Assembly: GCA_022828125.1 (NCBI GenBank)
Contig: JAJEJD010000014.1
Location: 1-44,800, forward strand
Source of the DNA: a bacterium
GTDB lineage: Bacteria; UBA8248
Reading direction: 5' to 3'
Length of the DNA stretch: 44,800 nt
In this document: in pieces, positions 1,046 to 14,713 of the stretch
How positions within the stretch are numbered: the first letter of the stretch is position 1
How the letters are laid out: each line of letters starts with the position of its first letter
Translations under genes and position numbers: made by a program
The notes under the pieces: generated by a model
Databases searched by the model: none
What the model saw: only the letters and a program-made list of their open reading frames with translations
Told to the model about the DNA's origin: nothing

Positions 1046-2347
1046 TCACGCCGCGCCGCACCATTCCAGAATCAGGTGAAGCAGCCCCTCGACAGAAAGC
1101 CCCAGTTCGTCGATAAACGTGAATTCGTCGGGGATGTGGCCCCGCGGGCACTCCCCCCCGAACATGATCGTCGGCGTATCTCCGTAGAGGACCGGGAACC
1201 GCATGTCCGTCGTCCCGTTCAGGGCCTGACGCTGGCAGGGCCGGCCCGTGACCCGCTCGGCCACCGACAACGCCGTCTTGACGAACGGGTGTTCGGGGTC
1301 GGTGAGGCAGGGCTCCGCGCGCCTCTCCGTCCATTCCAGACGGGGCGGATGCTCGCGAAGCCACGGGTCGGCCTGGGCTGCCCGGGCGATGTGGTCTTCC
1401 ACCAGTTGTTTCACCTCATCGAGACTCTCTCGCGGGGCCACCCCCGCCACACCCTCCAGTACGCACTCGGCCGGGAGCTGGCCGATGGACACGCCCGCGC
1501 GGATCACGGTCACCACGAGGTTCACCGTTCGGGGTTCGAGCCCGCTTATCTCGAAACGCTTTTCCACCAGCGGTTCGCGTACCGCCTCCGCTCTTTGCGC
1601 GTCCAGTTCCCTGAGCGCGGCGTGGATATATTCGGCTTTCTCGATGGCGTTCACGAAAAGGTGCGCCGAACCCTTGTGACCGGCCTGGCCCGGCACGGTG
1701 ATCCGGAAACTCACGTCGCCGCCCGAACCGATGTCCACGCCGCCGAGTCCCCCCGGCTTCATGTGCGTGTAAACGGCGCCATCCGCACGAAGGCCGCGCA
1801 GAACGCACGCCAGCATGCCCCCGCCGCCGCCTTCTTCCTCCTCGACGGTGGAAAGCAGCGTCAGATCGCCCTTCAAGCGCACCCCGGCGTCTTTCAACGC
1901 CTGTGCGCACACGATCATGACGGCCAGCCCCGACTTGGCGTCTCCCGACCCCCGCCCGTAGAGCCGGTTACCCTCCACCTCCCCTCCGAAGGGGTCCTTC
2001 GTCCAGGCGCTTCGCGGGCCGGGCGGAACCGTATCGGCATGGCAAAAGAGAAGGAGCGACCTGCCGCCTCCCGTTCCCCGAAGGCGGCCGATCACGTTGG
2101 GCCGCCCCGCATAACCCTTCTCCAGCGATGAGCGAGGCGCCGAGAACGCCGGATGCTCTCTCACCTCCTCCAGATTCGCCTCGAACGCCTCCACCTCCAA
2201 ACCGGCATCGGCGAACCGTTCCTGCACCAGGGTCTGGATTGCTTCTTCCTCTCCCGTGGGGCTGGGGATCCGGACGAGTTCCTGAAGCAGGGCGGCCACG
2301 TCCGTTCGCCGGGCCTGCGAAATCACCTTCTCAAGCGCATCGTTCAT
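1046..2347 (-). CDS. M20-family metallopeptidase (ArgE/DapE/CPG2-like deacylase)
   Basis: Cytoplasmic zinc-dependent amidohydrolase of the M20 family (433 aa), which removes acyl groups from, or splits, small peptide-like substrates. Visible metal-site motifs are the F-C-H-A-D-T-V-P-P block (His103, Asp105), G-S-G-D-A-K-S-G (bridging Asp136), the acidic T-V-E-E-E-E run with the general base and metal-ligand glutamates at about 169-170, and the C-terminal G-H-I-P-D-E-F block. The lid domain lies between about residues 200 and 320. The ATG at 2347 has GGAGG 7 nt upstream. It precedes a sugar-type permease on the same strand. The exact substrate (acyl-ornithine, succinyl-diaminopimelate or other) cannot be assigned. 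Confidence 0.9.
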   Translation of the reverse strand: MNDALEKVISQARRTDVAALLQELVRIPSPTGEEEAIQTLVQERFADAGLEVEAFEANLEEVREHPAFSAPRSSLEKGYAGRPNVIGRLRGTGGGRSLLLFCHADTVPPGPRSAWTKDPFGGEVEGNRLYGRGSGDAKSGLAVMIVCAQALKDAGVRLKGDLTLLSTVEEEEGGGGGMLACVLRGLRADGAVYTHMKPGGLGGVDIGSGGDVSFRITVPGQAGHKGSAHLFVNAIEKAEYIHAALRELDAQRAEAVREPLVEKRFEISGLEPRTVNLVVTVIRAGVSIGQLPAECVLEGVAGVAPRESLDEVKQLVEDHIARAAQADPWLREHPPRLEWTERRAEPCLTDPEHPFVKTALSVAERVTGRPCQRQALNGTTDMRFPVLYGDTPTIMFGGECPRGHIPDEFTFIDELGLSVEGLLHLILEWCGAA

Positions 2348-6935: not shown

Positions 6936-8552
6936 CTACTTCTGGTAAGCGTCCTCCCGAGTGCAATACGCGCAGTAGGGACGCGTGACCACATCCGCCC
7001 ATTTCGCCGAATGCGTGTGAACGAAGGGCGTCTCGAACAGCGGGATCACGGGCGCGTCGGCCGCTACCATATCGACGATCTGACGCCACGCGGCGCCCCG
7101 CTTCTTCACGTCGGGGATCTGCCATTCGGCGTCGAGGAGACGCTGAACGCCGACGTTGATGTAGGACGGCGCGTTGTTGAAGTTCGCCGAGCCGATGTTG
7201 TTCCTGTCATAAACCCGCGTCACGCTGATCTTGGGGTCGGGCCCGGTGGTGAAGAACTGCATCATGATGTCGAAATCATGATTGATGTACACCTTCTTCA
7301 GCGTCGCCGCCCGGTCGAAGGACTCGATCTTGATGTCGATGCCGACCTTCTTGAGCTGCTGCTTGATCACCTCGGCCGCCAACCCCTCGAAGCCGCGGCC
7401 CTTGGCCCAGGTTACCGTGAGGCTGAAGCGCTTGCCTCCCCTCATCGGGTAGCCCGCCTCGTCAAGCAGCCTGTTCGCCATCTTCAGGTCCTGCTTGTAC
7501 TGGGCGAAGCTGCCCTTGTGCGCCCACTTCATGGCCGAGTGCATGATGCCGTCCGCCACTTTCGCGGTGCCCCCCGTAGCGAGCTGGCTGATCTGGTTCT
7601 TGTCCAGCGCATACGCGATCGCCTGGCGAACCTTCACGTTGCCGGTGATGGGCCGCCGCATGTTCAGGAGCATGAACTCGACCTGCCCCGTCGCCTCTCC
7701 CCCCTTGTCGAGGACGACGAGTTTCGGGTTCTTCTTGAGGCGTGCGGCCTGATCCCAGGGGATGAGGGCCGCGCGGAGATAGTCTATCTCCCCTTTCTCC
7801 AGGGCGATGAGGCGGGTGTTGGCGTCCGAGACGAACCGGATGACCAGCTCATCCGCGTAGGGCTTGGGCGCGTTCCAGTAATTCGGGTTCCTCACGAGCC
7901 TGACGTGGCTGCCCTTCTTGTACTCCTTGAGCATGAAGGGCCCGGTTCCGACGGGCTTCTTGCTATACGGAGCGTTCAGGAAGGCCTTTCGGCTGCCCAC
8001 GTGATCCTTCCACAGGTGCTTGGGATAGATGGCGGGCCCGCCGAAGATCACCCCCATCACGGTGAGCAGGGGGGCGAAAGGCTTCTTGAGGCGGACGACG
8101 ATGGTGTACTTGTCCGGCGCTTCCACCTTCTCCGCCACGGGCTTCCAGAACACGCGCGAGCGCGGATTGTACGGCAGGCACTTCTCCAGCGAGAACTTCA
8201 CGTCCTCGCTCGTCATCTCCTTGCCGTCGTGGAACTTCACGCCCTTTCTGAGGTGGAAGACGAGCGTCTTCCCGCCGTCCTTGACCTCCCAGGATTTCGC
8301 CAGCTCCGGCTTCGGGTTGAGGTCGAAATCGAGCGTGATCAGCTTGTTGTAGATGTTCACGGCCGGCACCTGGACCGTCGTGCCCGGTTTGACGATCAGG
8401 TTGAAGTGCCCCGGGTCGGCTTCCAGGCCGATGACCAGCGTGCCTCCCCGCTTCTGGGCCCATGCGGACCCCGGGATGTGAGTGAGTACGAGCACCGCGG
8501 CGAGAACCAAGAAGATAGCGGCGCTACCGAATCGAACCTTGCGTCGTTCCAT
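6936..8552 (-). CDS. ABC transporter substrate-binding protein, family 5 (SBP_bac_5)
   Basis: Secreted or lipid-free periplasmic receptor of the importer (538 aa). The chosen ATG at 8552 has GGAGG 8 nt upstream and gives a clean signal peptide: M-E-R-R-K, a hydrophobic core at about 10-25, and a predicted cleavage after A-W-A at residue 32. An upstream in-frame start at 8582 would add ten residues and spoil the signal. Family marks include L-R-K-G-V-K-F-H-D-G-K, D-V-K-F-S-L-E, V-G-T-G-P-F, N-P-N-Y-W and V-R-Q-A-I-A-Y-A-L-D. These proteins bind peptides, glutathione, nickel chelates or opines; the ligand is unknown here. The gene begins 155 nt after the UGSC partner gene. Confidence 0.93.
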   Translation of the reverse strand: MERRKVRFGSAAIFLVLAAVLVLTHIPGSAWAQKRGGTLVIGLEADPGHFNLIVKPGTTVQVPAVNIYNKLITLDFDLNPKPELAKSWEVKDGGKTLVFHLRKGVKFHDGKEMTSEDVKFSLEKCLPYNPRSRVFWKPVAEKVEAPDKYTIVVRLKKPFAPLLTVMGVIFGGPAIYPKHLWKDHVGSRKAFLNAPYSKKPVGTGPFMLKEYKKGSHVRLVRNPNYWNAPKPYADELVIRFVSDANTRLIALEKGEIDYLRAALIPWDQAARLKKNPKLVVLDKGGEATGQVEFMLLNMRRPITGNVKVRQAIAYALDKNQISQLATGGTAKVADGIMHSAMKWAHKGSFAQYKQDLKMANRLLDEAGYPMRGGKRFSLTVTWAKGRGFEGLAAEVIKQQLKKVGIDIKIESFDRAATLKKVYINHDFDIMMQFFTTGPDPKISVTRVYDRNNIGSANFNNAPSYINVGVQRLLDAEWQIPDVKKRGAAWRQIVDMVAADAPVIPLFETPFVHTHSAKWADVVTRPYCAYCTREDAYQK

Positions 8553-8707
8553 TGCTCCGCCCTCCAGAAAAAGGATTACCACTTATGGACCGGGGCGTTG
8601 TGCCCCGTCGTCATACCGCCTCCAGGGTTGAATGCTCCCGATAAGACAGGGGAATGATGGGATACGATAGCGCCTGGAACCCGTTCTCCTCTTGGTCCGA
8701 CTCGCGT

Positions 8708-9763
8708 TCAGTCGGTGAAGGAAAAATCCATCTTTCGCGTGACGCTGTGCGTGTTGCCGAACGTCGGGATGACGAGGCTGTGCTTCCCGAGTCCGCCCGC
8801 GACGAACAGGCAGATGCTATCCACATCGTCGACAACGGGAACGCTCTGGAGGTCTTCCTGCGCCATGAGGTCGTCCCGGCGCCCCCGCGCGCGCTCCAGG
8901 TTCGCAGGCGCAAAAAGAAACGTCGGCACCCTGCCCCGCTCGTACAGGAAGGCCCGGATCCGCGGCGGGTCCCAGCCGTCGCGCACGAGCATGTCCACGT
9001 GTTCGGGGCCGAGGACAACCACCATTTCGCCTCCGAAGAGCGCGTTGTTGCTCCCTGCCTGCATCATCGAAGAAGCGATGGACTGAAGCACGCCCTCGCC
9101 GTCCGTGCTGGCCGCGTCGTTGACCATGATGTGCGGGTCGACGGCGATGACCGTCACGGCGCTGTCGGAGCGTTCCAGGCCGCGCTCGACGTGGAGCGGC
9201 GGCCACGGGCTCGCCTCTTCGTTCTCGCCGATGCAGCTCGAAAACTTGCCCTGGTGGCCGAAGGTGCTGCGATCGGTATCGCCCGGCTTGGCGCCCCCGA
9301 TGTTCTGCAGGATGAACCGGAACGCCCTGCCGATGGTGGCGTTGGCGCGCCAGCCCTGGCCGAAGAGGTTTTCCCTGCAGTTGATCCCCAGCGCGCCCCG
9401 GGCGGGGCCGTGGACGACGATGAGCTGCGCGATGCAGTTCGTCGTCCCCTGAACGCCCGGCAGGTTGTATATGGGGTCGAAGATGGCGTCGACGGCGGTG
9501 ACGAGGACCGGCATGTATTCGGGCTCACAACCCGCCATGGCGGCGTTGACGGCGATCTTCTCGATCGTGGCGTCGCCGAACAGGTGGGGGATGCGGCCGC
9601 GGGATTCTTCGGGCGGCCGCCCCGATGCCTCCACCATGGCCGCCACCCGCTCTTCGGTCGGCGGGATGACGGGCAGCCCGTCCCCCCAGCCGCGTTCCAT
9701 CACGTACTCGAGCAACTCCAGGGGGGATTCCGCCACCTCGTGGCGCGTGGAGGCCAGCTTCAT
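8708..9763 (-). CDS. Uncharacterised conserved protein, partner of the UGSC selenoprotein
   Basis: 351 aa with no signal peptide or membrane span. I recognise it only as a conserved environmental-bacterial family that I recall seeing beside UGSC proteins; no function is known to me. Visible landmarks are G-W-G-D-G-L-P-V-I-P-P-T near residues 25-36, A-M-A-G-C-E-P-E-Y (75-83), R-A-N-A-T-I-G-R (139-146), N-I-G-G-A (154-158), and S-S-C-I-G-E-N-E-E-A-S-P-W (175-187). Cysteines are 79, 110, 129, 177 and 318. The strongly patterned Asn, Gly, His and Cys motifs suggest an enzyme. The ATG at 9763 overlaps the UGSC stop by 4 nt (ATGA), so the two are translationally coupled and probably act together. 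A longer reading upstream would run through the UGSC gene in another frame and is rejected. Confidence 0.8.
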   Translation of the reverse strand: MKLASTRHEVAESPLELLEYVMERGWGDGLPVIPPTEERVAAMVEASGRPPEESRGRIPHLFGDATIEKIAVNAAMAGCEPEYMPVLVTAVDAIFDPIYNLPGVQGTTNCIAQLIVVHGPARGALGINCRENLFGQGWRANATIGRAFRFILQNIGGAKPGDTDRSTFGHQGKFSSCIGENEEASPWPPLHVERGLERSDSAVTVIAVDPHIMVNDAASTDGEGVLQSIASSMMQAGSNNALFGGEMVVVLGPEHVDMLVRDGWDPPRIRAFLYERGRVPTFLFAPANLERARGRRDDLMAQEDLQSVPVVDDVDSICLFVAGGLGKHSLVIPTFGNTHSVTRKMDFSFTD

Positions 9764-10317
9764 CCTTCGTCTTCCGGGGGTGGCGACTGCGTCAGAGACT
9801 CCGCCACGCTTTCCAGAATTTCGTCCGCGTGGGCGTGCACCGTATCGAGCGGTATTCCGGTGATGGGATGGGGGATCGAGACGATCGGCAGGCCCGCAAA
9901 GCCCAGGGCCCGCGCCTTCTTGCGGCCGAAGGCTTCGAACATGTCCGTGATGACGGTGAGCGTGGGGAGCCCGCGCTGTTCGAGCTCGATCGCGTCGTGG
10001 ATACTCCACGGCGTGCAGGACCCTCAGTCGGGCACCGCGTTCACCACGAAGTCGCACTCCGCAGACATCCGGTCGATCAGGTCCTCCTCCAGGGGGAGCG
10101 CGCTGCCTCCCTTGCGGTAGTGCGTGAACGAGGCGATGGGATATTTCCCGCTCAAGCGCTCTTCCAGGCGGCGGAGCAGCTTGTCGGAGTTCGGCTTCGT
10201 GTTGTCGAGAAGGCCCAGGCGGACCCCCTCAAGTAAGGCGGGGCGCGCGGCCGGCCGCACCTTCTCCATCGGAGGGGGTATTCCCGATGGATCGAGAATC
10301 ACCAGAGTCTTCGCCAT
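9760..10317 (-). CDS. UGSC-family selenoprotein with in-frame TGA (selenocysteine at residue 98)
   Basis: A 185-residue protein read through an internal TGA at 10024-10026. The first 97 residues (D-P-S-G at 9-12, L-L-D-N-T-K-P-N at 36-43) lead to D97, then the TGA, then G-S-C-T-P-W. This reproduces the U-G-S-C-T motif that names the UGSC family, in which Sec or Cys occupies the first position. After the TGA the frame is open for 87 codons (I-H-D-A-I-E-L-E-Q-R-G, T-D-M-F-E-A-F-G-R-K-K, A-G-L-P-I-V-S-I-P-H-P) and ends in a TGA that overlaps the next ATG. U98-x-x-C101 is a potential thiol/selenol redox pair. The ATG at 10317 has GGGGAGGGG 6 nt upstream. A hairpin fits a SECIS. Function is unknown. 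A nonsense mutation is possible but unlikely given the exact motif. Confidence 0.88.
9996..10010 (-). promoter_or_regulatory. Putative bacterial SECIS hairpin after the UGA codon
   Basis: On the coding strand, CGTGG-AGTAT-CCACG forms a 5-bp stem with a 5-nt loop whose second base is G. The loop begins at the 22nd nucleotide counted from the U of the UGA. Weaker outer pairs flank an A/C mismatch. Bacterial SECIS elements are small hairpins just 3' of the UGA with a G in the first loop bases, at this kind of spacing. SelB binding is inferred, not shown. Confidence 0.6.
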
Positions 10318-10442: not shown

Positions 10443-10517
10443 CAAACCCTCAGACGGCCCCCGTGCCGGGCCTTTACGGCCTGGCGGCGAACATCCAAGG
10501 AATCTGAACTGTAGAGG

Positions 10518-10668
10518 GCTGTTGAAAAAGCCTCGCTTGTCAGGGGATAAAGGCAACCCCCCCCTACCCCCCCTTGTCAGGGGGGCAAGAAAAAACAAAA
10601 ACCCCTCGGCCCGGCGAGGGCGCATCGCCTTTTTATACCCCCCTGACAAGGGGGGGTAGGGGGGGTTG
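10518..10668. repeat. Modular palindromic intergenic repeat, copy B
   Basis: Lies in the 399-nt gap between the UGSC start and the cinA stop. Inner arms are at 10554-10585 (CAA-C8-TA-C7-TTGTCA-G6) and 10638-10668 (the complement, with C7). The core has an A-rich segment, then CCCTCG-GCCCGG-CGAGGG, itself a perfect 6-bp hairpin. GTTGAAAAAGCC marks the left flank near 10520; no matching right flank is visible before cinA. Apart from this repeat and the promoter at 10414-10442, I see nothing in the gap. Confidence 0.85.
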
Positions 10669-10716
10669 CTTTCAAAGAGGGAGGTCGGGGGGTCGCACGA
10701 AAGCGGCCTTCCCGCG

Positions 10717-12806: not shown

Positions 12807-12837
12807 TCGGGTGTCCTCTTATAAAGCGAACCTGGAA

Positions 12838-13090
12838 GGGGGCTGGTGAAAAAGCCCCCCTTCTCAGGGGATAAAGGCAACCCCCCCTACCCCCCTTATC
12901 AGGGGGGCAAGAAAAAACAAAAGCCCCCCTCAGCCCGGCGGGGGCGCACCGCCTTTTTAAACCCCCCTGTCAAGGGGGGGTAGGGGGGGTTGCTTTTCCA
13001 GCCGGGGAAGCGAGCGGCAGCCGGGTTCGGCCGTGAACCTTCCTTCCCCGTTCCGCCCGCCCCGACGGGGGCTGTTTCAACAACCCCTAC
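12838..13090. repeat. Modular palindromic intergenic repeat, copy C
   Basis: Occupies the 280-nt gap between the amidotransferase start and the HAD stop. Inner arms are at 12878-12907 and 12962-12992, with core variants TTATCA on the left and TGTCAA on the right. Outer marks are GTGAAAAAGCC near 12845 and GGGGGCTGTTTCAACAACCC at about 13067-13086. The right edge reaches the HAD stop codon. Confidence 0.8.
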
Positions 13091-14505: not shown

Positions 14506-14713
14506 GTTGAAAAAGCCTCCTTCCGGGGAGTGGAGGGGCATCCCGCGCGCCCATAAAACCAACCCCCCCTACTCCCCCTTATCAGGGGGGTAAAAAAAAA
14601 GCGACGCCCGTCCGACGAGGAGGGGTTTTTGTTTTTCTTGCCCCCCTGATAAGGGGGGGGGTAGGGGGGGTTGCCTTTATGGAGTTTCCCCTTCAGGGAC
14701 TTTTTCAACAACC
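14506..14713. repeat. Modular palindromic intergenic repeat, copy D (inverted core)
   Basis: Fills most of the 347-nt gap between the flavin reductase start and the alcohol dehydrogenase stop. Inner arms are at 14560-14590 and 14641-14673. The outer pair is GTTGAAAAAGCC near 14509 and GACTTTTTCAAC near 14697. The asymmetric A-rich core is in the opposite orientation to copies A-C. No credible gene is present; open frames here are translations of the repeat. Confidence 0.85.

Follow-up and report, generated by a model that had tools for sequence, protein, structure and literature searches.

An interrupted reading frame

The locus considered here raises the question of whether an in-frame TGA ends a short bacterial protein or is read through as selenocysteine and, if the latter, what the complete protein could do together with its neighbours. 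Within the window (the whole stretch of DNA that was analysed, 44,800 nucleotides), an open reading frame on the minus strand (10317-10024) encodes 97 amino acids and ends at the TGA at 10026-10024 in the context P-D-[TGA]-G-S-C-T, past which 87 further codons remain open up to a second TGA (9762-9760), which shares nucleotides with the ATG start of the following gene (ATGA; ..GGATGAAG..). An earlier note on this DNA had described these coordinates and counts, all of them correctly, and had proposed that the two halves form one selenoprotein of the UGSC family. The features concerned are the following:

9760..10317, minus strand: gene of a UGSC-family selenoprotein (185 aa, Sec98), supported by both family models and dN/dS
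10024..10026, minus strand: in-frame TGA encoding selenocysteine (Sec98), motif D-U-G-S-C-T

The joined reading of 185 amino acids exceeds the cut-offs of both family models, scoring 148.6 bits against NF041046 (cut-off 125), in a single match that spans both halves, and 177.2 bits against PF24696 (cut-off 25), and the family assignment of the earlier note thus stands. In the scan with curated NCBIfam models, NF041046 was the sole match of this protein. The UGSC family was described in 2008 with a likely thioredoxin-like fold and with no function assigned (Zhang and Gladyshev, PMC2398784), and the gene of the window is therefore a member of an already known family and not in itself a new one. 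An orthologue sharing 94% identity (L070, titled Nitrospinota bacterium, COS4_bin_23) served for comparison: dN/dS is 0.12 upstream of the TGA and 0.08 downstream of it, so that purifying selection acts on the two halves to a similar degree.

Selenocysteine at the in-frame TGA

The genome to which the window belongs (3.92 Mb, 97% complete) contains the whole machinery for selenocysteine insertion that the earlier note had proposed to search for. The gene selA (576 bits) lies just upstream of selB (384 bits), a tRNA-Sec (selC) with the anticodon TCA (UCA) is present, and selD (C30:4116-5078, L026) is interrupted by one in-frame TGA, so that selenophosphate synthetase is probably itself a selenoprotein. 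Eight UGSC genes occur in this genome and every one of them carries exactly one TGA, as do 89 of the 90 UGSC matches in 18 genomes of the same phylum, the exception being a C-terminal fragment whose start lies after the motif. Such regularity indicates that the in-frame TGA is not a product of chance. At the motif column, the fetched loci, which were ranked by similarity to selenocysteine-form queries so that cysteine forms may be under-counted, have 119 TGA and two TGC codons, and four further matches belong to a divergent subfamily that has TGA too. The two homologues with TGC, reading C-G-S-C-T as the earlier note had suggested looking for, come from genomes titled Sphingomonas (L111) and Natrialba asiatica (L145). 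No selB above the cut-off was found in either of these two genomes, whereas it was found in 13 of the 14 selenocysteine-form genomes tested, the fourteenth having selB-like pieces split over contigs.

As side observations, a single marginal match was found on viral contigs, and five metagenome bins titled 'Bordetella parapertussis' (L104, L115, L119, L129, L140) contain selenocysteine-form UGSC genes similar to genes from environmental bins of Betaproteobacteria; the five bins probably carry a wrong species name.

The recoding signal expected after a bacterial selenocysteine codon is also present:

9994..10012, minus strand: bacterial SECIS hairpin whose stem covers nt 12-30 downstream of the TGA, supported by covariation, codon choice and core z

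The stem contains one C-A mismatch (nt 13/29), and the GU of the apical loop lies at 10004-10003, that is, at +20/+21 after the TGA, presumably the same position as in E. coli fdhF. At the top pair (nt18-nt24), 74 of 103 distinct selenocysteine loci have G-C and all of the remaining 29 have C-G, and the serine codon in the loop is AGT at 89 of 89 loci, compared with 9.6% of the serine codons in UGSC and P genes (P being the partner gene described below), although these loci are mutually related and neither the pair nor the codon counts are independent events. The 3'-side change at pair 18-24 leaves the encoded Val unaltered (GTC with TGG, GTG with TGC), and such a two-sided synonymous change would scarcely be expected unless an RNA structure were being maintained. 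The 25-nt hairpin core of the window folds with z = -2.75, within the range of -2.1 to -2.9 obtained for cores of 25-27 nt, which includes the divergent UGSCTPAV subfamily, where the protein sequence is different. The 61-nt fold after the TGA is no more stable than its shuffles (z = +1.0) and, therefore, the evidence for the SECIS element rests on the hairpin core, the covariation, and the codon choice.

These data bear directly on two other readings of the TGA. According to the first, the codon is a nonsense mutation, a sequencing error, or a programmed stop, and the product is the 97-residue protein at which a plain table-11 gene call indeed ends. This reading is effectively refuted by the recurrence of TGA at the same column in eight paralogues and about 90 copies in the phylum, the conserved SECIS covariation, the full selenocysteine machinery, the low dN/dS after the TGA, and the cysteine found at this column in genomes lacking a detectable selB. 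According to the second, TGA has been reassigned to another amino acid such as tryptophan in this genome, for which no supporting point was found and which is even less credible, since the UGSC gene itself terminates at a TGA overlapping the next start, homologues exhibit cysteine and never tryptophan at the column, and selA, selB, selD, and tRNA-Sec are all present. Reassignment and a pseudogene were accordingly weighed and rejected, as was the thioredoxin-like fold discussed below. The TGA at 10026-10024 encodes selenocysteine in a genuine UGSC-family protein, where SelB inserts it at residue 98 under the guidance of the hairpin, a conclusion that we regard as virtually certain and that upholds the proposal of the earlier note through TGA conservation, the SECIS element, and the complete machinery.

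A conserved partner gene and its surroundings

The strongest clue to the function of UGSC is a conserved partner gene located directly downstream, which the earlier note had missed:

8708..9763, minus strand: partner gene P, about 350 aa, starting MKLASTRHEV; its start overlaps the UGSC stop; no Pfam/NCBIfam model or PDB fold match

Each of the eight UGSC genes in this genome is accompanied by homologues of P, and at C11 one homologue is fused to UGSC. UGSC–P fusions occur at L024/L039, and a fusion of UGSC with Unknown_1, a domain that may or may not correspond to P, was reported in 2008 (PMC2398784). On 80 contigs from other species, 88 of 89 UGSC genes have P in the same orientation no more than 3 kb away, and 82 of them no more than 250 nt away, in the order UGSC–P in 79 of the 88 pairs and P–UGSC in the other nine. 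This pairing spans Chloroflexota, Betaproteobacteria, Rokubacteria, Entotheonella, and haloarchaea, and the gene association makes it quite likely that UGSC acts jointly with P, putatively as a physical complex. A different arrangement is observed on contig C5 of the same genome (L035:13391-17559), where four tandem P genes are found with a single UGSC gene about 2.7 kb away, and the divergent gene between them looks like a molybdopterin-type oxidoreductase.

P represents a widespread family without a name in current Pfam and NCBIfam. None of 49 members has a convincing match to the models of these databases, and PDB sequence searches with P and its profile returned no convincing relative. AlphaFold models P with confidence (pLDDT 92.8, pTM 0.92), and no PDB match listed for this model exceeds a TM of 0.26, so that the modelled fold may be new. 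The Foldseek matches, to cyclic amide hydrolases and class I fumarases, had TM ≤0.26 among those listed and were judged meaningless. The nearly invariant polar residues of the family are D27, C78, N140, R145, K172, E179, N180, and E181.

P is followed in the window by genes of a transporter and a peptidase-like enzyme:

6936..8582, minus strand: substrate-binding protein of a dipeptide/nickel-type ABC transporter (SBP_bac_5), the next gene in this direction, with synteny in L070
3000..6851, minus strand: Dpp/Opp-type ABC transporter permeases and ATPases, open reading frames named by sequence inspection
1046..2347, minus strand: M20-family peptidase/deacylase-like open reading frame at the cluster end, named by sequence inspection only

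The substrate-binding protein and the permeases and ATPases after it are likely encoded in one operon, and the orthologous locus L070 keeps the permease and following genes downstream too, while the M20-like reading frame is a possible substrate-processing enzyme. Other UGSC–P loci have genes for the uptake and catabolism of organic acids nearby, among them TTT-type binding proteins (at 27 loci), crotonases, and CaiB-type CoA transferases (named by inspection), as well as acyl-CoA dehydrogenases and LLM flavin oxidoreductases (both likewise named) and amidohydrolases. A recurring downstream pathway was sought across the UGSC–P loci and none was found; since the neighbouring genes vary so widely, no single pathway is indicated. 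The intergenic regions of the window also harbour a dispersed repeat at four sites in 12 kb (2468-2682, 10513-10693, 12837-13017, and 14564-14684), up to approximately 160 nt long and containing CCCCCCTACCCCCCCTTGTCAGGGGGG as its core together with an inverted partner, which is possibly a REP/MITE-like element or a transcription terminator.

Kinship with GrdB and PrdB and the predicted fold

GrdB and PrdB are known as protein B of the selenium-dependent reductases that act on glycine, betaine, or sarcosine and on D-proline, respectively. When 63 UGSC proteins were scanned with NCBIfam, the top five non-UGSC models by number of members matched were all of GrdB/PrdB types, namely TIGR01917 (35 of 63, best E 1.4e-7), TIGR01918, GrdF, GrdH, and PrdB TIGR04483 (3.8e-5), matches that are weak yet agree with one another. 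The UGSC protein of the window itself has no match to the curated GrdB/PrdB models. Profile comparison by hhalign of UGSC with GrdB/PrdB-like selenoproteins gave P 9.4e-8, with U aligned to U and similarity running C-terminal, compared with P 0.0034 for the best of 100 column-shuffles and 0.13 for the reversed profile; in an earlier and smaller set, masking of the selenocysteine column in both profiles gave P 2.5e-5. The region of detected homology consists largely of the last 90-100 residues, which surround and follow selenocysteine, and these profile similarities argue strongly that the selenocysteine half of UGSC is a distant relative of the selenocysteine domain of GrdB/PrdB. The partner does not share in this kinship: P exhibits no similarity to GrdE and GrdB profiles (P = 0.25 against GrdE), the gene adjoining UGSC in the window is thus not a pyruvoyl-type GrdE, and no P gene was found beside the fetched GrdB/PrdB-like genes, including the PrdB-like ones with UPxC.

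The same genome also encodes a GrdB–GrdE pair (C15:262831-265233; L161, L180), whose GrdB has an in-frame TGA in a UGTGT motif with no cysteine. The PF07355 match to this GrdB stops exactly before selenocysteine, so that model-based calls lose the C-terminal part. Moreover, short PrdB-like selenoproteins with UPxC (L164-L167, L183-L205) are frequent in UGSC-bearing genomes.

The AlphaFold model of UGSC (pLDDT 95) consists of a five-stranded flavodoxin/Rossmann-like sandwich with selenocysteine just before helix 101-114. Comparison of this fold with the PDB gave weak matches, including several flavodoxin-like structures and other alpha/beta sandwiches, with no thioredoxin among the best 50, and PDB sequence searches with UGSC and its profiles found no convincing relative. 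The fold of UGSC is thus predicted to be flavodoxin/Rossmann-like and not thioredoxin-like, a prediction that disagrees with the proposal made in PMC2398784.

The earlier note had read the U98-x-x-C101 spacing as a redox centre. This suggestion holds in part, since Cys101 is nearly invariant, being kept in >90% of UGSC members, while the predicted non-thioredoxin fold, the match of the motif to the selenocysteine site of GrdB/PrdB, and one paralogue speak against it. This paralogue (L037:1888-2403, contig C31 of the same genome) has UGSS in place of UGSC and SVRD in place of SVHD, having kept the hairpin and lost the second cysteine, and GrdB-type proteins of the phylum are also without a second cysteine (UGTST/UGTGT). 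It has to be considered, nevertheless, that UGSC could be a general thiol-disulfide oxidoreductase in which UxxC reduces disulfides or peroxides and P is a target or an accessory, as the U-x-x-C spacing and the thioredoxin-like fold thought likely in PMC2398784 would suggest. We consider this improbable in view of the modelled fold with its weak TM to doubly-wound folds, the profiles pointing to GrdB/PrdB, the UGSS paralogue, and the clustering with catabolism and uptake genes and not with redox defence.

A proposed two-subunit reductase

UGSC and P could constitute a two-subunit, selenocysteine-dependent reductase for organic substrates, a mechanism for which we see the case as evenly balanced. 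The neighbouring transporter would import a small substrate, an organic acid or an amide-like compound, which P would bind. Sec98 would be placed as in GrdB/PrdB, where a buried strand leads into the N-terminus of a helix, and its selenolate would attack the bound substrate in a reductive cleavage of a carbon–heteroatom bond or in another reduction. The resulting Se-substrate or selenenylsulfide intermediate would be resolved by Cys101 where present and by an outside thiol in UGSS paralogues, and the eight paralogous UGSC–P pairs may be specialised for different substrates. Since P is unrelated to pyruvoyl-type GrdE by profile, the carbonyl chemistry of Grd/Prd is not simply transferable to UGSC–P.

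Alternatively, UGSC–P could be a non-reductive enzyme, such as a hydrolase, lyase, or transferase acting on CoA or amide substrates, with selenocysteine serving as a nucleophile or a metal ligand. The CoA transferases, crotonases, and amidohydrolases among the neighbours fit such an enzyme, and P, confidently modelled without a known fold, leaves the chemistry wide. However, the characterised relatives of the selenocysteine domain, GrdB and PrdB, belong to reductases (PMC13188914), and the conservation of Cys101 likewise argues against this possibility, which we regard as unlikely, though less so than a thiol-disulfide oxidoreductase. The whole account, comprising a selenocysteine-form UGSC, its kinship with GrdB/PrdB, its joint action with P, and the reductase mechanism, is the one we favour by a narrow margin. 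More tentatively, UGSC and P might represent an undescribed class of selenium-dependent reductases, composed of a minimal GrdB/PrdB-type selenocysteine subunit and a new-fold substrate subunit, and multiplied into numerous pairs, each specific for its substrate, with which uncultured bacteria of marine, sponge-associated, freshwater, and groundwater origin (and, in a cysteine form, some organisms without selB) would degrade unusual organic compounds.

Comparison with known systems

The additions to the known UGSC family are, thus, the kinship with GrdB/PrdB, the near-obligate partner P, and the UGSS paralogue. Kinship and partner, together with the uptake and catabolism context, provide a testable enzyme hypothesis for UGSC, and the results question the assumption of a thioredoxin fold. 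Thioredoxin-fold selenoproteins of the UxxC type share this spacing with UGSC, whereas the predicted fold differs and the second cysteine is not absolutely required in UGSC. With GrdB (TIGR01917) and PrdB (TIGR04483), UGSC has in common a strand, the motif U-G-[ST]-[CSTG]-T, and a helix ending in E-x-x-G-[IV]-P-T; in contrast to them, it comprises 185 amino acids without the N-terminal part of GrdB and pairs with P, whereas GrdB/PrdB pair with GrdE/PrdA. UGSC genomes also keep their own GrdB–GrdE and PrdB-like selenoproteins alongside the UGSC–P pairs.
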